NCBI GenBank assembly: GCA_012522185.1
Contig: JAAYKY010000035.1
Span: 1 to 64,000, forward strand
Source: Flavobacteriaceae bacterium
GTDB taxonomy: Bacteria; Bacteroidota; Bacteroidia; Flavobacteriales; Weeksellaceae
DNA length: 64,000 nt
Direction of reading: 5' to 3'
The position numbers were made by a program, and so were the translations under genes. This document shows, one piece after another, positions 1-13,351 of the stretch. The notes beneath the pieces are model-generated. The model made no database searches. It had not been told where the DNA came from and saw nothing but the letters and a program-made list of their open reading frames with translations. Positions within the stretch are counted from its first letter, which is position 1, and each line of letters starts with the position of its first letter.

Positions 1-47
1 GTAGTATACGGGTAACTGTATCGAGGGTTCGAATCCCTTCCTCTCTG
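1..47 (+). tRNA. tRNA-Ser, 3' part (truncated by the window edge)
   Basis: Only the variable arm, T arm and 3' acceptor strand are in the window. A long variable arm is visible: a 6-bp stem (ATACGG with CTGTAT) closed by a GTAA tetraloop, which makes it a class II tRNA. The T stem-loop follows (GAGGG, loop TTCGAAT, CCCTT), then the acceptor strand CCTCTCT and discriminator base G. A long variable arm plus discriminator G points to serine rather than leucine (usually A). No CCA is encoded. The anticodon lies outside the window, so the isoacceptor cannot be named. Confidence 0.85.
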
Positions 48-54
48 CAACTAT

Positions 55-92
55 AAAACGCAAACGCCTACTTATTAGGTGTTTGCGTTTTT
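55..92 (+). terminator. Rho-independent terminator after tRNA-Ser
   Basis: A 15-bp stem (56-70 with 76-90, one G-T pair) with a 5-nt loop is followed by T residues. It starts 8 nt after the tRNA end. The arms are also flanked by A residues on the left, so it could act on both strands. Confidence 0.85.
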
Positions 93-174
93 GCTTATTG
101 TGATAATGCACACAAAATGATAAGAACGAAGTTCTGGGTATTTGGGTTTAAAACGCCCCCGCTGGGCTCAACCC

Positions 175-228
175 AGTTGATTCTTGGAAGTTTGAAAATC
201 GAACAACGAAAATCGTTAAGAATCAACT
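175..228. repeat. 11-bp inverted repeat downstream of the GNAT gene
   Basis: AGTTGATTCTT at 175-185 is exactly inverted as AAGAATCAACT at 218-228, with a 32-nt spacer that holds a smaller palindrome (AACGAAAATCGTT). There is no clear T-run. It lies between the tRNA terminator and the stop of the minus-strand GNAT gene and may be a 3' end structure or an old insertion scar. Confidence 0.4.
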
Positions 229-282
229 AAGTCAATCTTTCTTTTTTATATCTATTTTTTTATAATAAATAAGATTTTACGC

Positions 283-708
283 TCAATCTTCATGTATCAA
301 TCGCGTCATTCCCGAACCTAAAAAATCATTGGGTCGAATGAGAAAACCAAACTTCTCATAAAATCTTTCCTTACCTTTTGCCGACATCAATCCAACAAAA
401 GCACCGTCAACCGCATTCTCTTTAATATAATTCATTAATTTCTCCATTAGCAAATACCCGATTTTCCGGTTTTGGAATTCAGGCAAAACAATCAAATCCT
501 GAATGTAAAAAACCAGCTTTCCGTCTCCGAGCACCCTGCCCATACCGATGATATGACTATCTTTCATCACGCTCAAAACATAGAGTGAGCTTTTTAACGC
601 GAGACCAACTCCCTCGCCCTCAATCATTTCCCATCCCACAGAATTTCGCAAGGAATTATAATCCTCACCGCTCGGTGCCATTTCCAGAAATATTATTTCA
701 CCATTCAT
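283..708 (-). CDS. GNAT family N-acetyltransferase
   Basis: A 141-residue single-domain acetyltransferase of the GNAT fold, which transfers acetyl from acetyl-CoA to an amine; the substrate cannot be read from the sequence. The core strand around residues 66-77 (ending DLIVLPEFQ) leads into the acetyl-CoA pyrophosphate-binding turn QNRKIG at 79-84, followed by helix YLLMEKLMNYI. The C-terminal YEKFGF segment is also typical of the family. The start codon overlaps the stop of the upstream membrane-protein gene by 4 nt (ATGA), so the two are probably translationally coupled. The domain call is firm, the role unknown. Confidence 0.85.
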   Translation of the reverse strand: MNGEIIFLEMAPSGEDYNSLRNSVGWEMIEGEGVGLALKSSLYVLSVMKDSHIIGMGRVLGDGKLVFYIQDLIVLPEFQNRKIGYLLMEKLMNYIKENAVDGAFVGLMSAKGKERFYEKFGFLIRPNDFLGSGMTRLIHED

Positions 709-1838
709 CTCAACTTTATTTTAAATTCTGATTTTAATTTTTCTCTCCAAATGAATAACTCATAAGCTTTCTCATAAATTTCACTTTCTACAGCTTTCAA
801 AATCTCCGAATCTAAACGATGGACTATGTTTTCAGAATTTTTGAAATGACCATAAACATCCCGATGTTGCTCAAATAATTCATAAACCCATTTACGCACA
901 GATACTCTCAACTGCTTTCTTTCTGTTTCGTCAAGACTTTTGAAATAATTATATCGTTTATTTAAAACTTTATATTCTTCTGCCCTCTTTTGGTTTTCAG
1001 TCTGATAAGTTTTTGAAAATTTATTTTTCTCTTCGGTCTTTATCTCTTCAAAAACATCTTGTAAAACTTTCTGTGTTTTCAATTCCTTCTCCGCTTTTTC
1101 AAAAAAACTTTTCATCCGAATGACTTTTACTAAATCTGAATTTACATACTCAAAACCGCGAGGAGTCAGATAGATTTTACCGCGTACGGCCAGTACGTCA
1201 AAGCTTGAAGTTCGTAAAGGACTTCTTTGGAAATGATGATGAAACAAGGAATGAAATGCCAATAGTTTATAAATCTGAAAGCCTTTACCACTTAAACCTT
1301 CGTCAATTTCATCATTATAATGTTCTACAAACTCATTCGGTGTTTTATGATACAATTTATGGTAAACCGACCACAGCAAATCTTCATTCACCTCAGGGCA
1401 AAACAATTGTTTAACTGTCGAATTAAATTTCTCAAATTTTTCTTTTAAATCCTTTTCCTTAGCTATTGTTTCTTTTTCTATAATTGGAATCGGAGTGGGG
1501 TTTGGAGTAAGAACTAATGATTTTTCTCTGGAAGGAATCATACTGAAAATTGTATAAGCAATCCAAATAACCTTTATAAAAGTCCAGAGTTCTACTTCCA
1601 ATGGAACTTGAAAAAAAGGATTAATAAGAACCGCTGAAAACAGCCAGAAAAACAATCGCTGTGAATCATCTTTTTCATGAAAAGCAAAAAAACAGAAAAT
1701 CAAGAGTCCAATAAATTGAATGTAACTGAAATAATCATTTCCCTTGCTCGATAAACTAAATAACAATAAAACCACCCAGGAGATTTTGACGATGACCAAT
1801 AAATCCTTGCGTCTGATGCCTTCAAGTTCTGCATTCAT
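705..1838 (-). CDS. DUF6804-like membrane protein with long charged cytoplasmic tail
   Basis: 377 residues. The first ~100 contain three or four hydrophobic helices (about residues 14-30, 38-53, 63-77, 84-100) whose pattern, including FFWLFSAVLINPFFQVPL, resembles the small DUF6804 membrane family. That assignment is from memory and moderate. A proline-rich linker (TPNPTPIPI) follows, then about 260 charged, largely helical residues with Lys/Glu-rich stretches near 120-135 and 240-290 that look like coiled coil. No catalytic motif was recognised. It is transcribed ahead of the GNAT gene with a 4-nt overlap. The function is unknown, and the joining of a DUF6804-type anchor to a long cytoplasmic tail is unusual. 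Confidence 0.7.
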   Translation of the reverse strand: MNAELEGIRRKDLLVIVKISWVVLLLFSLSSKGNDYFSYIQFIGLLIFCFFAFHEKDDSQRLFFWLFSAVLINPFFQVPLEVELWTFIKVIWIAYTIFSMIPSREKSLVLTPNPTPIPIIEKETIAKEKDLKEKFEKFNSTVKQLFCPEVNEDLLWSVYHKLYHKTPNEFVEHYNDEIDEGLSGKGFQIYKLLAFHSLFHHHFQRSPLRTSSFDVLAVRGKIYLTPRGFEYVNSDLVKVIRMKSFFEKAEKELKTQKVLQDVFEEIKTEEKNKFSKTYQTENQKRAEEYKVLNKRYNYFKSLDETERKQLRVSVRKWVYELFEQHRDVYGHFKNSENIVHRLDSEILKAVESEIYEKAYELFIWREKLKSEFKIKLR

Positions 1839-2308
1839 AGCATTAATTTTTTAAATTAAACTTCTCTGAAATTGCAAGGATGAAAACTCAATCGAAATGA
1901 ATACAGAAAGGAATCTGCACCTTTTATTTAGTCTTACGACCTTGCAAGTTGCCAAATCATTGCACCACCTTATCAGTTCGGTCTGACAGGTTGGCGTCCA
2001 TTTGAATTCATTCAAATGAAGCTCTATAGATTCAGAATTTCAATAACAAATCAAACTAAGATTGATTTGCTCTACAAAGATTATTTTATTTAATGAAATA
2101 TGCAAATCATCTATTTTTAAGTCTTTGCCTTTTTTCACCTCCAGCTATCTCTGGACTATATCATGTACATCCAAAGCATTTGAAATAAGAGGTTTATTCA
2201 AAAATAAATCTAAGAATTTGTTAATTTTTTTGGTATCGTTTTTGTACAAAACTTGATAATTAAATAATTAAGCCGGCTTAGTCTTTTAATCATTCCAAAT
2301 TATCAATT
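1839..2308. other. 470-bp intergenic region between divergent genes
   Basis: No convincing gene. It holds a tight palindrome, CATTTGAAT-TC-ATTCAAATG at 1999-2018, and a looser inverted pair TTGCAAGG (1872-1879) and CCTTGCAA (1940-1947). A 64-codon open frame at 2062-2256 has no family resemblance or usual leader. The region must carry promoters for the minus-strand membrane gene and the plus-strand YtxH gene, but no good TAnnTTTG element was located. Confidence 0.5.
1999..2018. promoter_or_regulatory. Perfect 9-bp inverted repeat, possible operator
   Basis: CATTTGAAT and ATTCAAATG flank a 2-nt spacer (TC). Size and symmetry fit a dimeric regulator site. It sits in the divergent intergenic region, about 160 bp from the membrane-protein start and 290 bp from the YtxH start. 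No bound protein is known. Confidence 0.35.
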
Positions 2309-2593
2309 ATGAAAAAGAATAATGAGAATTTCGTTTTATTGACCGGACTCATTGGAGGCGTAGCGGCTGGATTTTTGGCGGGAATACTTTTAGCTCCTGA
2401 CTCTGGAAAGTCAACACGTGAAAAGTTAAGAAAAGGTTGTAATAATTGCAGAGAAGAATTTGAACGAGTAATTCACCAAATCAAAGATTTAACTTGTGAT
2501 AAAAAGACCGAAAATGAAGCCCAAGAAGCAATTATAAAGCCCAAGAAGCAGAAGTCTACATCCACAACTAGAAAAGCAAAGCTGAAGAAATAA
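2309..2593 (+). CDS. YtxH domain-containing protein
   Basis: A 94-residue membrane-anchored protein. One N-terminal glycine-rich helix (residues 8-28) is followed directly by the YtxH signature LLAPDSGKSTREKLRK, then a charged Lys-rich tail. Two close Cys (CNNC, about residues 44-47) are uncommon. YtxH proteins are stress-linked and mechanistically unclear. It is first in a run of small same-strand genes (YtxH, holin-X-like, basic protein), a grouping common in Flavobacteriia and usually thought to serve the envelope or a general stress response; that role is inference. Confidence 0.85.
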   Translation: MKKNNENFVLLTGLIGGVAAGFLAGILLAPDSGKSTREKLRKGCNNCREEFERVIHQIKDLTCDKKTENEAQEAIIKPKKQKSTSTTRKAKLKK

Positions 2594-2638
2594 TGATCAA
2601 CAGAACTTCTCCAGCCTTTTTTCATTTAAATAAGGCCT

Positions 2639-2983
2639 ATGCTAAACTATCTGAAAAAATATGTGAATTATGGTATTGCCTATGCCAAACTCGAAATCAC
2701 CGATTCGGTCAGTAATATGATTGGTGCAGGTGTATTCGGTATTCTGGCTGGAGTTTGCGGACTGATGATTTTGTTCATGGGAAGTATTGCCGCGGCCTAT
2801 TTACTCAGTGATTTACTTGAAACACCCGGCACAGGCTTTTTGATCGTGATGGTATTTTATGTGTTGTTGTTTGTGGTATTTATTCTGTTCAGAAAGAAAA
2901 TTAAACTCTTATTTACCAACAATGTAGTGGAAGCCGCAATGGAAGCAATGGATGACCCTGAATCTGAAAATTATGAAAACTAA
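2639..2983 (+). CDS. Phage-holin-like (holin-X/DUF1469-type) membrane protein
   Basis: 114 residues with an amphipathic N-terminal helix, two strong transmembrane helices (about 28-55 and 67-85) joined by a short turn with LETPGTG, and an acidic C-terminus. This is the layout of the actinobacterial holin-X/DUF1469 family. Despite the family name there are no phage genes nearby. It follows the YtxH gene by 45 nt and overlaps the next small gene, so all three are probably co-transcribed. Confidence 0.75.
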   Translation: MLNYLKKYVNYGIAYAKLEITDSVSNMIGAGVFGILAGVCGLMILFMGSIAAAYLLSDLLETPGTGFLIVMVFYVLLFVVFILFRKKIKLLFTNNVVEAAMEAMDDPESENYEN

Positions 2984-3302
2984 AGACATCAACACGCTTG
3001 CACAATTGAGACAAGCCAAATCTGAGCTCAAAATGAAAATGAAGCGCAAAGACAATGATTTGCAAAACAATTTGATTTATTCGCTTGCCAATAAACTTTT
3101 CTCCGGAAAAAGCAAGGCTCCGAATTATGTTTCATCAGCTCTGGACAAGGGCACAAGAAACGCAATCCAGTTTCTGGCTCACACAACAAAAAGAAAACCG
3201 AGAATCAAAAGAGTCATCAAACCGGCTCTTATTGCTGCTTTAGCAATAGCCGTTCCCGTTTTGGCTACGAAAGCCGGCGGATTTTTAAAGGCAAAAGCTT
3301 AG
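2973..3302 (+). CDS. Small basic protein of the YtxH/holin-X cluster
   Basis: A 109-residue, strongly basic protein. The ATG at 2973 is preferred over the one at 2952 because it gives the usual short overlap (11 nt) with the previous gene and begins MKTKDINTLAQLRQAK. The middle is Lys/Arg-rich (KMKMKRKDND, TTKRKPRIKRVIK), and a C-terminal hydrophobic segment (about residues 80-104) could insert into the membrane. It is regularly found next to YtxH and holin-X genes in flavobacteria. Function unknown. Confidence 0.75.
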   Translation: MKTKDINTLAQLRQAKSELKMKMKRKDNDLQNNLIYSLANKLFSGKSKAPNYVSSALDKGTRNAIQFLAHTTKRKPRIKRVIKPALIAALAIAVPVLATKAGGFLKAKA

Positions 3303-3310
3303 TCTTTTAT

Positions 3311-3568
3311 ATGGAAAATATAGTGGGAAGCGCAGCAGGGATATTAACATCGGTGTCGATGATCCCGCAGTTAATCAAAGTTTTGAGAGAGAAAAATGTG
3401 GAAGATTTATCAGCCGGAATGCTCATCGTGCTGATTTCAGGCCTTTCACTTTGGGTTTGGTATGGAATTATGAAAGGCGAATGGCCCATTATTCTTTCCA
3501 ATGCCTTTGCTGTATTGGTAAATCTTTGGTTGGGAATTTGTTTGATTTACTATAGAAAAAATAATTAA
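3311..3568 (+). CDS. SemiSWEET-type sugar transporter (PQ-loop/MtN3 family)
   Basis: At 85 residues this is the standard size of a bacterial SemiSWEET, a three-helix unit that dimerises to carry sugars across the inner membrane. The PQ motif lies in helix 1 (SMIPQL, about residues 16-21). Helices run roughly 5-23, 37-55 and 62-80. The LSLWVWYGI segment in helix 2 carries the aromatic residues expected along the substrate path. It starts 8 nt after the previous stop. The sugar transported cannot be told from sequence. Confidence 0.85.
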   Translation: MENIVGSAAGILTSVSMIPQLIKVLREKNVEDLSAGMLIVLISGLSLWVWYGIMKGEWPIILSNAFAVLVNLWLGICLIYYRKNN

Positions 3569-3598
3569 CTTCAATTTTTCTCACTTAATTTACAAAAC

Positions 3599-6500
3599 TT
3601 GAAATTTAAAATAAATAAGAGAAAACTTCTGAAATGGACCGGCATCACGCTGGGATCCTTAATTGTACTTCTTATTTTATTGATTTTAAGTTTAAGAATT
3701 CCCGCGGTTCAAAATTACGTTAAAGACAAACTCATTGTCTATCTGGAAGATAAAATCCAAACCGATGTAAATCTCGAAAAAGTTTTCATAGCTTTTCCCA
3801 ACCGAATCATTCTCGAAAATCTTCATTTACAGGGACAGGATGTCGATACTTTATTGGCAGTTCGTAGTTTTGATGTAGGATTGAATATGTGGAAATTGCT
3901 TGACTCCAAAGCCGATTTTACTTCGATTGATTTGCAGGGCGTTCGCGCCAATGTCGTCCGGAATCCCGATGGGACTTTCAATTTTGATTATATTCTCGAT
4001 GCTTTTGCCACCGAAGAAAAAGAAGAAGAATCCAAACCTTTTATCATTTCATTGGATAAAATAGAATTGCAGGATATCGGCATCAGTTTCATTGACAAAC
4101 AATCGGCAAACGACATCAATGTGTTTTTTAATCATTTGAAAACCAGAGTGAAAACTTTCGATCTCGAAGAAAATTCCTATGCTTTGGACGAATTAAATCT
4201 CGACGGATTAAAACTGAAACTTCATCAGGATTTTGTGGAAGAAGTAGCGGTAAATGTTGAAGAAACCGTGGACTCGCTCAATCAGCAGAAACCGATGAGC
4301 ATTGATTTGAACGCAATTAAATTCACCAATTTCGATGTGGATTATGGCGATGATAATTCCAAAACTTATGCAAAAGTTCTGTTCAAAGAATTAAGCGCCG
4401 AAATTGATAAACTCGATCTGCAAAATAATTCCTTCGAAATCGACAAAATCCTTTTGTCCGGAGCACGATTAAATGCCGATTTGTTTTTGCCTGAAACTTC
4501 AAATGAAGAAAATAAAAAAGACAGCATTTCTTCTTCCGGCTCAACGCCTAAGTTGGTATTGAGAAAATTAGAGTTGAATGATGTTCAGGCGGTTTATAAT
4601 AATACAGCGGTTACATCGACTAATCAAGGAATGGATTTCAATCACCTTGATTTTTCAGATTTAAATCTGGAAGTCCGGGATTTTCAGATGGAAAATAATG
4701 AATTTATCGGGAGAATTGAGTCTGCCGAAATTCAGGAAAAAAGTGGTTTGAACATTCAGGAATTCCGAACGGATTTTGCTTATCAGTCCCAACAAGCCTT
4801 TTTGAAAAATCTTTACCTGCAAACGCCCAAAACCATTTTGCGTGATGAAATTGTTTTGAATTATTCGTCCATCGAACAGTTAAGCGAGGATTTAGGAAAC
4901 GTTGCGATTTCAGCCGATTTGTACAATTCCAAAATTGGATTTTCTGATATTCTCGCCCTCGCGCCCGATTTGAGAAATACAGCGCCATTCAATAAATATC
5001 CGAATGCTTCGCTCCATCTCGATGCTGAAATCAATGGAATTGTCAATGATTTATTGATCCAAAATCTGGAAGTTTCCGGATTGGATGATTTGAAACTTAA
5101 AGTTCGCGGGCGACTTCGCAATGCCACAAATCCTGAAAATATTTATTACGATTTAAACATTTCGGAACTTTCTTCTTCGGCCAAAACCATCTACAATCTC
5201 GTTCCGCCGAACACCATTCCGTCCAATATTAGTTTGCCTTCTTCTTTTACCCTTCGCGGAAAAGCAAAAGGAACCATAGAAATCATCGATGCCGATTTGA
5301 AACTCAATTCCACACTTGGGAATGCGGCCGTTTTGGCTAAGCTCGATATGAGCCGTGAAAACCGGGAAACTTATGATGTAAAAGCCAATTTACGCGATTT
5401 GCAAATCGGAAAAATCATTCAAAATCAAGAATTGGGAGCTATTTCGGCAGATATAACTGCAAAAGGCGAAAGCTTTGATTTTGCCCGTGCCAATGCGGAT
5501 TTGTCGGGCGATGTTGCCTATGTGGATTACAATGGTTATCGCTACCAAAATATGGATCTGACCGGGAAAATTCGAAACGGAAATTACGATATCGAACTGA
5601 TTTCCAAAGATCCGAATGCGGATTTGAATTTGATTGCTTCGGGTGTTTTCAATGAAGAAAATCCGACGGTAAAATTAGACGGAACCATTACCAAATTGGA
5701 TTTGAATAAACTCGGATTTTATGCCGAACCGATGATCATTGCAGGAAATATCGAAGCGGATTTCACCAATTTAAATCCGGATGAATTGAATGGTTTTTTG
5801 AACCTCAGAAACTTCGCCATTTCCGATACAGAAGAAGTTTTTCCGATTCAGGATTTAAGTCTGAATGCGCTTTCCACCATAGATTCAACTAAAATTTCTT
5901 TGCAATCCCAAATCGCCGATTTGGAGCTGAACGGAAAGTACAAAATCACTCAGATTTTTGGTTCGCTTCAGCAGACGCTCAATCAATATTATCAGTTCCA
6001 GCCGGTCGCGGACACGGTGGTCATCGATCCTAATCAATATTTCACTTTGGATGCACGGATTAAAAACGATGATTTAATTCGGAAATTTGTGCCGGATTTG
6101 AAAAGTTTTGAAACCATTGTCATTAACGGAAATTATGACGCCGACACCCGAAAAATTGAATTGAATGGTGAAATTCCACATATTTCTTATGGCGAATATT
6201 TGGTCGAAAATGCAAGTCTTCAAATTCAAAATGAAAATCAGGCGCTTCAATATAATTTAAATGTCGCCGGATTGAACAGTGAAAGTTTTGCGCTTAACAA
6301 ACTCAGTCTTTCAGGTGATGTGGCCGATAATGTCATTTCTTATAATCTGACCAAAAAGGATGAAAAAGAGGAGGATCAGTTTTTAATTGCCGGAACCGCG
6401 GAGTCTTTGGGCGAAATCACAGAAATTTCACTCCATCCCGATGGTTTAAAACTAGATTATAAAGACTGGACGGTTGCCGAAAATAACAAAATTCAAATTG

Positions 6501-8599
6501 GTCCGGATGGGATTTTTGCCGATAATTTCCGGATTTCAAATGAAGGAAATGAAATTCTCATTCAGTCCGAGTCGAATTCACCCAATAGTCCACTCAATAT
6601 TGATTTTACCGATTTTGAAATTGCCAATATCACCGAAATCATTCGCAAAGATTCTTTGCTTGCAGAAGGTAGAATTAACGGAAATGTTCAGATACGAAAT
6701 ATTACTGAAAACCTGAGTTTTACTTCGGATTTGAACATCAGTGAACTGGGTGTTTTCGGAAATCCGGTGGGCGATCTGGCGGTAAAAGTGGACAATGCGG
6801 CGGGGAATTTACTCAATGCAGATGTAGCGCTGAGCGGAAACGATAACGATGTGAAAATTCTGGGCGATTACAATATGGAGTCCGGAAGTTTTGATTTGGA
6901 TATGGACATCAACCGTCTTCAGATGCAGAGTGTTCAGGGACTTTCAATGAACCAGATTACCGATACGGAAGGTTATCTTTCGGGCAATCTAAATATCACC
7001 GGGACGACCGAAGCACCGAGGATTTTGGGTGCGGTTCGTTTCAACGATGTCGGATTGCAAATTGCCCAAACCGGAAGTGATTTCAGAAATATCAATGATG
7101 AAATTGATTTTACCGGAAGAGGAATTGAATTTGATAATTTCAAAATCAACGACAGCGACGGAAATTCTCTGAATATCAACGGGCAGGTGCTTACACAGAC
7201 TTATCGGGATTTCGGTTTCAATCTGGATTTGACAGCCGATGATTTCAAAGTGGTGAATTCCGAGAAAAACAATGAAGCCATTATGTACGGCGTACTTTCC
7301 ATTGATGCAGATTTGAGAATTCGAGGTGATTTGGACTTACCGATTGTCGATGGAAATCTGGCGGTTTCAGACGATACTGATTTTACTTTTGTGTTGCCGC
7401 AGGAGTCGCCTTCCTTGCAGGAAAGAGAAGGAATTGTGGAGTTCATCGACAAAGACCAGCCGGTACTCAATCAAACTTTGGTGGACGAGACATTGAATTC
7501 CCAAACCAATTTCACCGGAATGGATGTGAATGTAAACATCGAAGTCAGTCGAGAGGCCAAAATGTCGATTATCATTGACAAAGCCAATGGAGATTTCGTG
7601 GAATTACAGGGCGAAGCCCAGTTGACAGGCGGAATTGATCCTTCGGGAAAAACGACTTTGGTGGGCGTTTATCAGGTCGAACAAGGTGGTTATGAACTTT
7701 CGGTAAGTATGCTGAAACGAAGATTTGACATTCAAAAAGGAAGTACGATTACCTGGAACGGCGAACCGACCGAAGCCACTTTGGACATCACAGCGATTTA
7801 TAAAACCCAAGCACCGCCGATTGATTTGGTGGAACAACAAATGTCCGGAAAATCCAATTCCGAAATGAACCAGTACAAGCAAAGAATTCCATTCAATACT
7901 TTACTTAAATTAAAAGGAGAATTACTCAAACCCGAAATCAGTTTTGACATTACGGTGGACGAAGAAAATGCAGGCGTTTCTTCGATGGTAATGGACGATA
8001 CCAAACAAAAATTGCAACAATTAAGAAACGAAGAAGCCGAAATGAACAAACAGGTTTTTGCTTTGTTACTACTGAACCGATTTGTGGGTGAAAATCCTTT
8101 TGACAGCGGTTCGGGACTTTCGGCTGAGTCGCTGGCACGGCAGAGTGTGAGTAAAATTCTTTCGCAGCAATTGAATAATCTTACCGAAGATTTAATTGAA
8201 GGCGTGGATTTGAATTTTGATTTGGAGTCAACGGAAGATTATACTTCGGGACAAAAAAATACACGTACCGATTTGAATGTCGGCGTAAGCAAAAGATTGC
8301 TCAACGACCGTCTGAAAGTTTCGGTGGGAAGTAATTTCGGGATTGAAGGCGATGCACGTCAAAATGAGAATACGACCAATATCGCGGGTGATGTGACCAT
8401 TGATTACAACCTATCCAAAGACGGAAGGTATATGTTGCGGGCGTATCGAAAAGATGAGTACCAGGTCGCTTTGCAGGGACAAATCGTAGAAACGGGCGTT
8501 GGATTTATCATTACATTGGATTACGACAAATTCCGTGAGATTTTTCAGCGAAGTAAGGAGAAAAAGAAAAACAGAAACAAAGAAGTAGAATTTAAATAA
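3599..8599 (+). CDS. tamB: TamB-like translocation/assembly module protein (AsmA-like repeats, DUF490)
   Basis: 1666 residues. An N-terminal transmembrane helix (about residues 12-31) anchors it in the inner membrane. A very long beta-rich periplasmic body built of AsmA/TamB-like repeats follows, ending in the conserved TamB (DUF490) C-terminal domain over roughly the last 350-400 residues. TamB proteins span the periplasm and are implicated in outer-membrane protein assembly and phospholipid transport. The start is TTG: no ATG precedes the transmembrane helix after the last upstream stop. Its stop overlaps the start of the Omp85 gene by one base (TAATG), the usual tamB-tamL arrangement in Bacteroidota. 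Confidence 0.93.
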   Translation: MKFKINKRKLLKWTGITLGSLIVLLILLILSLRIPAVQNYVKDKLIVYLEDKIQTDVNLEKVFIAFPNRIILENLHLQGQDVDTLLAVRSFDVGLNMWKLLDSKADFTSIDLQGVRANVVRNPDGTFNFDYILDAFATEEKEEESKPFIISLDKIELQDIGISFIDKQSANDINVFFNHLKTRVKTFDLEENSYALDELNLDGLKLKLHQDFVEEVAVNVEETVDSLNQQKPMSIDLNAIKFTNFDVDYGDDNSKTYAKVLFKELSAEIDKLDLQNNSFEIDKILLSGARLNADLFLPETSNEENKKDSISSSGSTPKLVLRKLELNDVQAVYNNTAVTSTNQGMDFNHLDFSDLNLEVRDFQMENNEFIGRIESAEIQEKSGLNIQEFRTDFAYQSQQAFLKNLYLQTPKTILRDEIVLNYSSIEQLSEDLGNVAISADLYNSKIGFSDILALAPDLRNTAPFNKYPNASLHLDAEINGIVNDLLIQNLEVSGLDDLKLKVRGRLRNATNPENIYYDLNISELSSSAKTIYNLVPPNTIPSNISLPSSFTLRGKAKGTIEIIDADLKLNSTLGNAAVLAKLDMSRENRETYDVKANLRDLQIGKIIQNQELGAISADITAKGESFDFARANADLSGDVAYVDYNGYRYQNMDLTGKIRNGNYDIELISKDPNADLNLIASGVFNEENPTVKLDGTITKLDLNKLGFYAEPMIIAGNIEADFTNLNPDELNGFLNLRNFAISDTEEVFPIQDLSLNALSTIDSTKISLQSQIADLELNGKYKITQIFGSLQQTLNQYYQFQPVADTVVIDPNQYFTLDARIKNDDLIRKFVPDLKSFETIVINGNYDADTRKIELNGEIPHISYGEYLVENASLQIQNENQALQYNLNVAGLNSESFALNKLSLSGDVADNVISYNLTKKDEKEEDQFLIAGTAESLGEITEISLHPDGLKLDYKDWTVAENNKIQIGPDGIFADNFRISNEGNEILIQSESNSPNSPLNIDFTDFEIANITEIIRKDSLLAEGRINGNVQIRNITENLSFTSDLNISELGVFGNPVGDLAVKVDNAAGNLLNADVALSGNDNDVKILGDYNMESGSFDLDMDINRLQMQSVQGLSMNQITDTEGYLSGNLNITGTTEAPRILGAVRFNDVGLQIAQTGSDFRNINDEIDFTGRGIEFDNFKINDSDGNSLNINGQVLTQTYRDFGFNLDLTADDFKVVNSEKNNEAIMYGVLSIDADLRIRGDLDLPIVDGNLAVSDDTDFTFVLPQESPSLQEREGIVEFIDKDQPVLNQTLVDETLNSQTNFTGMDVNVNIEVSREAKMSIIIDKANGDFVELQGEAQLTGGIDPSGKTTLVGVYQVEQGGYELSVSMLKRRFDIQKGSTITWNGEPTEATLDITAIYKTQAPPIDLVEQQMSGKSNSEMNQYKQRIPFNTLLKLKGELLKPEISFDITVDEENAGVSSMVMDDTKQKLQQLRNEEAEMNKQVFALLLLNRFVGENPFDSGSGLSAESLARQSVSKILSQQLNNLTEDLIEGVDLNFDLESTEDYTSGQKNTRTDLNVGVSKRLLNDRLKVSVGSNFGIEGDARQNENTTNIAGDVTIDYNLSKDGRYMLRAYRKDEYQVALQGQIVETGVGFIITLDYDKFREIFQRSKEKKKNRNKEVEFK

Positions 8600-10923
8600 T
8601 GGGGAAAATTCAAACATACATTCGTTCGTTATTGGTTTCAGGATTTGCCGTTTTGATTTCTTCTTGCAGCAATACCAAATACCTGAATGAAGGCGAAATG
8701 CTCTTTACCGGAGCTGAAGTGAAAATTGAAAACGACTCGCTTCCGCGAAAGGAAAGAAAGGAATTAAAAGAACAATTGGAAGATAATCTTACGCCGAAAC
8801 CGAATTCTTCTTTTTTAGGACTTCGTCCGAAATTATTGTTCTACAATATTACCAAAGAACCCGAAAAAGACAAGGGTTTACGTTATTGGATGAAATACCG
8901 ATTGGGCGAAAAACCGGTTTTATTGCAGGATGTGGACCGTGATTTTAACCGGGAAATTTTGGTGAATTATTCGGAGAACAAAGGTTATTTCAATGCAAAT
9001 GCTTCTTACGATACGATTTCAAAAAATAAAAAAGCCGAAATCATTTATACGGCCAATCCCGGACCGCGTTACCGACTGGGGTTGGTGGAATATCAAAAAG
9101 ACTCAACGCTGATCAATGAAGAAATTCAAAATTTAACCGATAAATCTTTGCTCAAAACCGATGAGCCATTTGATCTGGATGTCATCAAAGCGGAGCGGGA
9201 GCGAATTGACCGAAATCTCAAAGAGCGTGGATTTTATTATTTTAGTCCGGATAATATCATTGTTCAGGCCGATAGTACAGTTTCAAATGACCATAAAGTC
9301 GATGTCAATGTGAAGCTGAAAGACGATACGCCACAATTGGCCAAAGAGCAATTCACCATTGACAAAGTGATTGTATTTCCGAATTATAATATCGACGAAG
9401 TCAAACTGGGACGCTACGGAATTCCGGCTCATATCGATACGATTTCAGCCTATAAATACGAAGATATTTATGTGATGGATCACGATAACAAATTCAAACC
9501 CAAGATATTTGACCGCGCACTTTATTTCAAAACCGGTGATTTGTACAATCGTTCAGACCATAACCTGACCTTGAGCCGTTTGATCAATCTAGGTGTTTTC
9601 AAATTTGTGAAGAATGAATTTGTGGTTTCGGATTCGGCCAATCATAAGTTTGATGCCTATTATTTACTGACGCCAAGGGAGTTACAATCATTGCGTTTGG
9701 AAGCTCTGGGTCGTACGAATTCTGCGAATTATGCCGGAAGTGAATTGAACCTGAACTGGACACATCGCAATATTTTCCGTGGAGCCGAACAATTGAAAGT
9801 AGCGGTTTTTGGTGCTTTTGATGTGCAGATGGGCGGTCCGAAAGATGCAGCCAATATATTTCGTGCCGGAGCCAATGCGCAACTTTCCATTCCGAGGATA
9901 GTGGCACCTTTCCGATTTCAATCGTCGAGTGCCTTTGTGCCGAGGACGAATATTTCTATCGGATATGAATTTATGAACCGAACGGAACTTTATACACTCA
10001 ATAATTTCAATGCTTCTTTTGGTTATCTCTGGAAAGAAAATGAACGGAAAGAACACGATTTGAAAATCATAGATATTACCTATGTTTCGCCGGCCAATGT
10101 AACGGAAAAGTTCGACTCGATTTCGGAGAATAATCCCTTTATGCAAAGAATTGTAGAGCCTCAATTGATTTTCGGACCGATTTATTCGTATACTTATACG
10201 AATACGATGTTGCCGAAAAAGAACACGATTTATTACAGAGGGCGACTGGATTTGGCAGGAAATCTGGCGGGATTAATTTCAGGTGGAAATGCGAAGGAAG
10301 GTAATCAGAAGGAAATATTCGGAGTTCCTTTCAGTCAATATGCGAAAATTGAAAACGACTTCCGATTTTATCATAAACTGGACGATAAAAATTCGATTGC
10401 GACGAGGTTAATTGCCGGAGTGGCTTATCCGTACGGAAATTCCGAACATATTCCCTTTTCCCGACAGTTTTTCATTGGGGGAAGCAATAGTATCCGGGCA
10501 TTTCGGGCGCGGACTTTGGGACCAGGAAGTTTCGATCCACGGACTTTGGACAATGCCTTCTTTTTTGATCAGTCGGGTGATGTGAAGTTGGAATTGAATG
10601 CGGAATACCGACTCAATCTTTTCAATTTTCTGAACCTTGCGGTTTTTGCCGATGCGGGAAATATCTGGTTGGTAAACGAAGATCCGGATCGTCCGGGCGG
10701 AAAGTTTTCCAAAGACTGGCTGGATGAAATTGCGGTAGGTGCAGGATTGGGATTAAGAATGGATTTTTCGATTTTGATACTTCGACTGGATTTGGCGATG
10801 CCGCTCAGAGTTCCATATTTTGAGAAAGGCGATCGATGGGCATTTGATAAAATTGATTTCAGCAGTAGTCAATGGCGAAGGGATAATCTGATTTTGAATA
10901 TTGCGATTGGGTATCCGTTTTAG
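8599..10923 (+). CDS. tamL: TamL: BamA/Omp85-family outer-membrane lipoprotein
   Basis: 774 residues. A signal peptide ends in a lipobox (LISSC, Cys23), so the mature protein should be lipidated, as in the TamL branch of Omp85 proteins in Bacteroidota. Residues about 30-400 form POTRA-like repeats; about 400-774 form a 16-strand Omp85 barrel ending in aromatic-rich beta strands (last residues IAIGYPF). The strongly conserved Omp85 stretch is seen near GGSNSIRAFRARTLGPGSF. It is translationally coupled to tamB and should act with it in outer-membrane assembly. Confidence 0.92.
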   Translation: MGKIQTYIRSLLVSGFAVLISSCSNTKYLNEGEMLFTGAEVKIENDSLPRKERKELKEQLEDNLTPKPNSSFLGLRPKLLFYNITKEPEKDKGLRYWMKYRLGEKPVLLQDVDRDFNREILVNYSENKGYFNANASYDTISKNKKAEIIYTANPGPRYRLGLVEYQKDSTLINEEIQNLTDKSLLKTDEPFDLDVIKAERERIDRNLKERGFYYFSPDNIIVQADSTVSNDHKVDVNVKLKDDTPQLAKEQFTIDKVIVFPNYNIDEVKLGRYGIPAHIDTISAYKYEDIYVMDHDNKFKPKIFDRALYFKTGDLYNRSDHNLTLSRLINLGVFKFVKNEFVVSDSANHKFDAYYLLTPRELQSLRLEALGRTNSANYAGSELNLNWTHRNIFRGAEQLKVAVFGAFDVQMGGPKDAANIFRAGANAQLSIPRIVAPFRFQSSSAFVPRTNISIGYEFMNRTELYTLNNFNASFGYLWKENERKEHDLKIIDITYVSPANVTEKFDSISENNPFMQRIVEPQLIFGPIYSYTYTNTMLPKKNTIYYRGRLDLAGNLAGLISGGNAKEGNQKEIFGVPFSQYAKIENDFRFYHKLDDKNSIATRLIAGVAYPYGNSEHIPFSRQFFIGGSNSIRAFRARTLGPGSFDPRTLDNAFFFDQSGDVKLELNAEYRLNLFNFLNLAVFADAGNIWLVNEDPDRPGGKFSKDWLDEIAVGAGLGLRMDFSILILRLDLAMPLRVPYFEKGDRWAFDKIDFSSSQWRRDNLILNIAIGYPF

Positions 10924-11039
10924 CATTTTCCATTGTTTATAATTAAAGAAAGTTTCATTTTTAATTAATTAGTAGTTTAATCAAAATATAAACAAACTAA
11001 AGTTTTCTGTTATTATCTTTACGCCGCTCATACCGGTTT

Positions 11040-12329
11040 ATGGTTCAAAAAAACAATCCCAAAGTTGTCAATCCCTGGAAGTTCTATGATTGAGCCAATT
11101 CGGTTCATTCCTTGGTGATTGCCTCTGCGGTTTTCCCGATTTATTATGGTGCTGTAACGCTTTCTAACACTGCAAATCCGACTAAATTTATGGGGTTTCA
11201 TCCCGAAGCAGCTTTCAATTTCTCCTTGGCAATTTGTTTCTTTCTCGTGATTTTGATGTCGCCGGTTTTGAGTTCGGTTGCCGACACCATCGGAAACAAA
11301 AAAAAGTTTCTGAAATTCTTTTGCTACCTCGGTTCTTTCAGTTGTATGGGACTTTTCTTTTTCACAGAAGAAAACATTTGGCTGGGATTATTGTTGAACT
11401 TATTGGCTGCCGTAGGATATTGGGGAAGCATGGTTTTTTACAATGCTTATCTGCCCGAAATCGTGACCGAAGACCGGCTCGACAAAACTTCAGCGCAAGG
11501 ATTTATGGTCGGATATGTCGGCTCTGTCATTCTTTTGGTGATTTGTCTGGTTTTAATTCAGGTCGTGGGTGCAGGAAATGAAGGTTTCTGGACGCGACTG
11601 AGTTTTGTGCTTGTCGGACTTTGGTGGATGGGTTTTGCGCAGATTACCTTTCGCCGGCTTCCGACGAATATTTACAATAAAAAAATTCCGAGAAGTATAT
11701 TCAAATCGAGTTTTAAAGAACTTCGAAACGTTGCCCGTGAATTGAATTCTTATTCGACTTTACGGATTTTTCTAGGGTCATTTTTCTTTTACAGTCTTGG
11801 GATGCAAACCATTTTTCTGGTGGCGGCACTATTCGGTCAATCCGAAATCGGATTGACAACGGACAAACTGATCATGACGATTTTATTGATTCAGATTGAA
11901 GCCATTCTGGGCGCTTGGTTATTTTCGTTTTTATCGGGAAAAATAGGCAACCGAAATACACTTTTGATTGGAATTTTCATTTGGATCATCGTTTGTTTAT
12001 TGGGTTATACCATCGAAAAAGAAAGTCCTTCGGTAGAAACGCAGTTTTACATTATGGCCGCTCTGGTCGGATTGGTAATGGGTGGAATTCAGTCACTTTC
12101 CCGGTCGACGTATGCGAAATTATTGCCACCCACAGAAGATCATACCACTTATTTCAGTTTTTACGATGTGTTTGAAAAAATGGCATTGTGTTTGGGACTT
12201 TTCACATTCGGACTAATCATAGAAATGACCGAAGGAATGAAGGTTTCGACCTTGGCAATGGGTGCTTCGTTCTGTATCAGTTTCGTGATTATGTGTTTCT
12301 TGAAAATGAAAAAGCCGGTTTCAAATTAA
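11040..12329 (+). pseudogene. MFS transporter (UMF1/Atg22-like family) with in-frame TGA at codon 18
   Basis: Read from the ATG at 11040, the frame gives a normal UMF1-family N-terminus, VNPWKFYD-(stop)-ANSVHSLVIASAVFPIYY, then a complete 12-helix transporter. The TGA at 11091-11093 stands exactly where the family has Trp (YDWANS, TGG), so one G-to-A change explains it. The rest is open, with no frameshift. TGA is an ordinary stop elsewhere here (for example 43121-43123). A shorter product could start at the TTG at 11112 (405 residues), still holding most of helix 1. A sequencing error, a recent nonsense mutation or re-initiation are all possible. The upstream element TATCTTTA (11014-11021) looks intact. 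Confidence 0.75.
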
Positions 12330-12340
12330 ATCAAATTTTT

Positions 12341-13351
12341 ATGCTGAAAAATAAATTCACATTGGATTATTGGAAGAAAATTCTGCAAATTACGATCAAA
12401 GCAGCTAAAGGTTTTGCCGATGATCGTTGTATGAAATTCAGTGCTTCGTTGGCTTATTATACGATTTTTTCCATTGGGCCTTTATTGCTAATTGTCATTT
12501 GGTGCATCGGATTTTTCTACGGACAGCAATTGGAGGAAGGAACTTCTGCCCAAATGGAAGTTTTCGAAGAATTAAGTGAGATCTTCGGTACAAATGTGGC
12601 TAGTTTTATGCAAAGTTCGATGGAGAAAATGATGATCCAATCGGACTCCAACCTGGGAATTATCGTCGGGATTGGGACTTTATTATTTACTTCAACAACG
12701 GTTTTTGTAGATATTCAGGACTCCATCAATGCGATTTGGGGCGTAAAGCCAAAACCTAAAAAAGGTTGGCTTAAATTAATTCTGGATCGATTGATTTCTT
12801 TGTCAATGATCCTTGGGCTTGGATTTTTATTGATTACATCCTTGCTGGTCAATTCATTTATAATGCTTTTTACCAATTATATAACCGAAATCATTCCGGG
12901 CATTACGCTCAGTATGCTGAACTGGATCAACACCGGGATTACCTTTTTGGTGATTACCACCTTGTTTGGATTTATTTTCAAAGTTCTACCCGATGCAAAA
13001 GTCCGAAACCGTGACATCATCGGCGGTGCGATTTTCACTTCTTTATTATTCATGTTGGGGCGATACGGAATTTCCTTTTATTTGCAACACAATGCGACGG
13101 CAAGTGCTTTTGGAGCTGCCGGATCGGTGATTTTACTCTTGTTATGGATTTATTATTCGGCGGCTATTTTGTATTTCGGAGCGGAATTTACCAAGGAACA
13201 TTCCAAAGTTTTTGGGAATGGAATTCAACCATCCACTTATGCCGTTTTGGTTGCCAAAACAGAAATTGCGGTGAAAGGCGGTGACGATGCGGCAGTAAAA
13301 GAAGGCGAAATTCTACTGGAAAAAGACGAGAGTAAATGTGAGGAGGGCTAG
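12341..13351 (+). CDS. YihY/virulence factor BrkB family membrane protein
   Basis: 336 residues from the ATG at 12341; longer readings run back into the MFS gene in another frame and are not credible. The family motif region KFSASLAYYTIFSIGPLLL (about residues 27-45) begins helix 1. About six transmembrane helices follow, with the conserved GAAGSVILLLLWIYYSAAILYFGAEF near 263-288 and the cytoplasmic tail rich in Glu/Lys. YihY proteins were once annotated as RNase BN; that is not supported for the family and the function is unknown. It lies 11 nt after the transporter gene and is probably co-transcribed with it. Confidence 0.9.
   Translation: MLKNKFTLDYWKKILQITIKAAKGFADDRCMKFSASLAYYTIFSIGPLLLIVIWCIGFFYGQQLEEGTSAQMEVFEELSEIFGTNVASFMQSSMEKMMIQSDSNLGIIVGIGTLLFTSTTVFVDIQDSINAIWGVKPKPKKGWLKLILDRLISLSMILGLGFLLITSLLVNSFIMLFTNYITEIIPGITLSMLNWINTGITFLVITTLFGFIFKVLPDAKVRNRDIIGGAIFTSLLFMLGRYGISFYLQHNATASAFGAAGSVILLLLWIYYSAAILYFGAEFTKEHSKVFGNGIQPSTYAVLVAKTEIAVKGGDDAAVKEGEILLEKDESKCEEG

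Follow-up and report, generated by a model that had tools for sequence, protein, structure and literature searches.

An in-frame TGA at a conserved tryptophan codon in an Atg22-like transporter gene of Moheibacter, probably a young nonsense allele

A lone in-frame TGA at a tryptophan codon resembles recoding, and this likeness calls for caution, since raw reads and sister strains are needed before such a codon is interpreted. The question of what the TGA stands for is raised by a transporter gene lying in a 64,000-nucleotide stretch of DNA (contig JAAYKY010000035.1, positions 1 to 64,000; hereafter the window) from an environmental flavobacterium of the genus Moheibacter, whose congeners include M. 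lacus, M. sediminis and the MAG BROCD015. The assembly that contains the window is a draft of 63 contigs with an estimated completeness of 99.63%. In our judgement the TGA is probably a young nonsense allele, produced by one base change at Trp codon 18, which leaves the Atg22-like transporter gene near-null. A base error in the consensus, a restart of translation downstream of the TGA and several ways of decoding UGA have to be weighed against this reading.

The transporter gene and its TGA codon

The frame that opens at ATG 11040 and closes with TAA 12327-12329 translates into a string of 430 residues and stops, in which the sole internal stop is the TGA, at codon 18 of 429 (Table 1). It begins with MVQKNNPKVVNPWKFYD, is interrupted by the TGA and goes on with ANSVHSLV, and from there up to the TAA it is open, as the original prediction had stated. 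If the TGA is obeyed, the product is a peptide of 17 residues and most of the transporter is removed.

Table 1. Position of the transporter gene, its in-frame TGA and nearby signals in the window
Feature	Coordinates	Strand	Basis
Predicted -7-like promoter element TATCTTTA	11014..11021	+	5/6 specified positions of TANNTTTG; like element in four congener sequences
Codons 1-17 of the ATG22-like transporter gene, opening with the native ATG 11040	11040..11090	+	ATG likewise placed in L005-L008
In-frame TGA, codon 18; TGG (Trp) in relatives	11091..11093	+	Translation; 80/80 readable relatives TGG
Remainder of the gene, ATG22-like MFS transporter (PF11700), ending with TAA	11094..12329	+	PF11700 match
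TTG suggested as restart codon; encodes Leu at residue 25 when the full frame is read	11112..11114	+	TTG also in M. lacus; within predicted helix 1

The same prediction held that the TGA replaces the conserved Trp of a YDWANS motif and that one G-to-A change accounts for it, and both points are borne out by the comparison with relatives. The best 80 of 99 encoding stretches (L006-L085), together with L005 from a separate search, make up 81 loci, three duplicate loci being left out of the count (L002-L004, which had been taken in the wrong orientation and duplicate L007, L006 and L008); codon 18 is TGG in all 80 loci that contain the position, L034 ending before it. In an alignment of 21 relatives the invariant W18 falls exactly at the TGA codon, and the window agrees with all of the 60 columns that are invariant across these relatives (the window row being excluded from their definition), provided that Trp is assigned to the TGA. 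Because codon 18 is TGG in the relatives and the invariant columns are all kept, the TGA in place of Trp is not a misalignment. The orthologues of M. lacus, M. sediminis and BROCD015 are 86, 79 and 79% identical, respectively.

The original prediction assigned the transporter to UMF1; the family tested here was Pfam ATG22 (PF11700, Atg22-like MFS). Against the curated Pfam cut-off of 24.1 bits, the frame with the TGA read as Trp scores 221.1 bits, the frame that starts at the suggested TTG 221.6 bits and the M. lacus orthologue 235.8 bits. In NCBIfam no family was found for the TTG frame, and a literature search returned nothing that joined UMF1, Atg22 and "major facilitator". For the read-through frame, AlphaFold2 gives a model with an MFS fold (mean pLDDT 85.8, pTM 0.85); the 50 PDB matches listed include the MFS proteins MelB, FucP, FLVCR2, OxlT and XylE (query TM-scores 0.54-0.76). 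The gene thus resembles other Atg22-like MFS transporters in its PF11700 match, in its N-terminal motif, conserved bar one codon, and in its predicted fold, and differs from them in that the Trp of YDWANS is a TGA codon.

Upstream of the gene, the putative -7-like element fits, at five of six specified positions, the consensus TANNTTTG given in PMC6847099. In the four congener sequences compared, a like element occurs within one base of the same distance and the ATG stands in the matching place, in agreement with the earlier claim that the gene keeps such an element.

Age of the stop and in-frame stops elsewhere in the genome

Among the three options that the original prediction had offered, namely a very recent nonsense mutation, a sequencing error and a restart at TTG 11112, the recent nonsense mutation fits best. 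A single-base change would have turned the conserved Trp codon 18 into TGA; the gene would still be transcribed, but release factor 2 would end translation from ATG 11040 once 17 residues had been joined, so that the transporter would be essentially absent from the cell. If traces of full-length protein were made, tRNA-Trp would have misread UGA at the usual low rate, with insertion of the ancestral residue. The young nonsense alleles or incipient pseudogenes described in PMC7918605 are similar in having one in-frame stop, an otherwise conserved frame and an occurrence in one lineage, the difference being that the TGA considered here is known from one genome.

An old origin of the stop is unlikely, although the data do not go as far as "very recent". 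In a codon model of four sequences and 426 codons, in which the branch leading to this genome was freed, omega was 0.056 here and 0.034 elsewhere (p = 0.44), so that this weak test gives no significant rise of amino-acid change on the transporter's branch. Fixing omega at 1 on the same branch gave p = 0.063, above the 5% level; the rejection is missed because synonymous changes are near saturation among the four sequences. Of the base changes found only in the window, 12 fall on first, 6 on second and 27 on third codon positions, third positions being still favoured, and where the other three sequences do not vary the window has 8 amino-acid changes of its own (the stop included) vs 15, 28 and 34 in the congeners. 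In a simulation of neutral evolution, the probability of no further stop was 0.49 at 20 substitutions, 0.12 at 60 and 0.035 at 100; since the open frame alone permits some 60-100 neutral substitutions, the term "recent" is loosely bounded. An old, decayed pseudogene was rejected on the absence of any further stop or frame break after the TGA, neutral evolution of the branch being disfavoured but not rejected at the 5% level (p = 0.063).

The strongest competitor of the nonsense allele is an error of the consensus or of the assembly, in which case the cell would have TGG and the gene would be intact; we consider it unlikely, but worth keeping in mind. The remainder of the gene without decay, the invariance of the site elsewhere and the draft state of the assembly all agree with such an error. 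Indels are the error type that most often breaks frames. The TGA, however, results from a substitution, and no homopolymers surround it. Moreover, among 27 alignments of the window with ORFs of the congeners, which leave out positions 1-11039 and most of 40300-64000, four carry a stop, three of these just upstream of the start; that of the transporter is the only one inside a gene, and there are no split matches of the kind that a frame break leaves.

A homology screen in this genome gave a similar picture: 10 of 74 alignments carried a stop, nine ahead of the gene's initial Met and one inside, the transporter itself. This set amounts to 24,289 codons, a part of the genome, and its count of one is ascertained, because it includes the window (33 of the 74 alignments). 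The corresponding set from the congeners (25,655 codons, part of their genomes) had a stop in 12 of 79 alignments, always before the Met, and hence in none inside. A hexamer-score screen returned 29 candidates (5 of them TGA) in 490,001 bases of this genome and 37 (4 TGA) in 440,000 bases of M. lacus, most of which look by eye like gene junctions or reverse-strand noise; as it missed the TGA of the transporter, its sensitivity is limited. A genome-wide surplus of in-frame TGA was rejected on these two screens, each of which covers part of the genomes and of which that by homology is the cleaner. From the hexamer scores alone, one M. lacus gene may contain an in-frame TAA (L189:8375).

One candidate of the hexamer screen in this genome is real, namely a second in-frame TGA (L144:2845-2847 on contig C39; also L209) in an MFS gene that we call, by likeness, nucleoside-symporter-like. 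It is followed by 66 open codons, and its position is Gly in five of five congeners (GGC, GGA, GGA, GGT and GGT), two of which are only 51-52% identical. Such a second lone TGA in another gene is what a few base errors would produce, and to this extent it favours the error. The two lone TGAs, deriving from a Trp and a Gly codon, agree better with mutations that arose sporadically, or with some base errors in the consensus, than with recoding to Trp. Most likely, the stop in the transporter gene is an ordinary kind of event, one more isolated premature stop.

Other family searches in this genome covered MFS_1, with 18 matches, three rows of which had stops, and ABC_tran, in which none of the 36 matches had any. 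The MFS_1 row at C6:34435-35016 was discarded as a gene junction among intact frames, and that at C15:11775-12476 because it runs beyond the transporter's own TAA; the third row, on C39, is the nucleoside-symporter-like gene with the second TGA, to which this search had led.

Restart of translation and decoding of UGA

Restart at TTG 11112, or at GTG 11115, would yield a working transporter of 405 residues. The frame from the TTG is indeed open over this length and keeps the family match given above, but the restart proposed by the original prediction found no positive support, and we regard it as quite improbable. In the read-through model, predicted helix 1 spans residues 7-40 and so includes residue 25, and a protein starting there would keep 16 helix residues and would lose W13, D17, W18, N20 and S21, which are invariant in the 21 relatives. 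The TTG is an ordinary Leu codon, found as TTG in M. lacus, where the gene is intact, and as CTC, CTG and TTA in the other three congener sequences. An A at position -3 aids initiation in Flavobacterium johnsoniae, according to PMC6847099; the TTG has a T there, not an A, although the native ATG has a T as well. The mean predicted unpairedness, computed with an assumed transcript start, is 0.34 around the TTG vs 0.35 around the ATG.

Under functional readthrough, decoding of the TGA by tRNA-Trp would be frequent enough for a useful, if lowered, level of the transporter, an outcome that we hold to be very unlikely. In its favour, PMC7918605 describes leaky reading of UGA as Trp in Escherichia coli and reports that stops lying in frame, with dN/dS below 1, are widespread in bacteria. 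Furthermore, the tRNA-Trp gene of this genome (anticodon CCA, five anticodon-stem pairs, A9 and a U11-A24 pair) carries A24, which in E. coli is introduced by the Hirsh mutation and increases readthrough of UGA (PMC13092985). This base is, however, shared across the genus and by many other matched genomes of the class: besides this genome, the 11-24 pair is U-A in 18 and C-G in 6 of 24 genomes, in a survey in which 25 of 60 class genomes, this one included, were matched and in which matching by likeness favours U-A. The wild-type tRNA-Trp of E. coli has U11-G24. The gene is identical in six of six genus genomes compared, so the tRNA has not changed alongside the TGA, and a strain-specific suppressor tRNA-Trp was ruled out on the same ground. 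Of the genomes compared, no other carries the TGA, so the stop is not conserved across lineages, and the other in-frame TGA known from this genome stands in place of Gly rather than Trp. The known tRNA-Trp(CCA) variants that read UGA (Hirsh A24, A9C and a 4-bp anticodon stem, as listed in PMC13092985) are comparable in that UGA to Trp would fit and A24 is present; the tRNA considered here departs from them by the genus-wide occurrence of A24, the five-pair stem, the A at position 9 and the lack of any sign that UGA is a sense codon.

A broader form of this idea is that flavobacterial UGA is unusually leaky through a natural A24 of the Hirsh type, and that TGG-to-TGA changes are tolerated as alleles of lowered expression, the transporter being one of them. 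We give this proposal very little credence, although it frames a wider, testable question, that is, whether the A24 tRNA-Trp of flavobacteria surpasses its E. coli counterpart in reading UGA. By analogy with other bacteria (PMC7918605), low-level misreading of the TGA as Trp may occur here, and nothing points to a dedicated mechanism for decoding UGA in this genome. In a genome of the same family, a tRNA-Trp(CCA) gene (L146:1501-1572) combines C9, A24 and a C27-U43 mismatch, and features of each of these types have been linked elsewhere to UGA readthrough (PMC13092985).

Selenocysteine or a general reassignment of UGA, to which the in-frame TGA alone would point, has practically no chance of being correct: relatives carry Trp and not Cys at codon 18, selenocysteine is rejected with the best SelB match and the 150 of 259 tRNA-Sec candidates scored all below cut-off, and UGA as Trp is ruled out by the presence of release factor 2 and the use of TGA as a terminator. 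For SelB the best match in the genome reached 190.5 vs 242.25 bits and, lying between the tRNA-Thr and tRNA-Trp genes, is presumably EF-Tu; for tRNA-Sec, the five places of the matches coincide with ordinary tRNA genes. Likewise, no tRNA with a TCA anticodon (UCA) was found among the 150 of 220 tRNA candidates scored, an incomplete list that is without tRNAs for Glu, Val and Ile. The gene for release factor 2 (prfB) scores 489.4 bits (cut-off 370). Among long mechanical ORFs that do not overlap, TGA is the terminator of 13 out of 54 within the window and of 2 out of 19 over the following 20 kb.

The neighbouring gene

Next to the transporter, at 12335-13348 of the window, lies a YihY/BrkB-like gene that is 85% identical to its counterpart in M. 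sediminis vs 68% to that in M. lacus, whereas the adjoining transporter gene shows the reverse order (86% to M. lacus vs 79% to M. sediminis). This pattern of identities may perhaps reflect replacement of the YihY/BrkB-like gene in one lineage.
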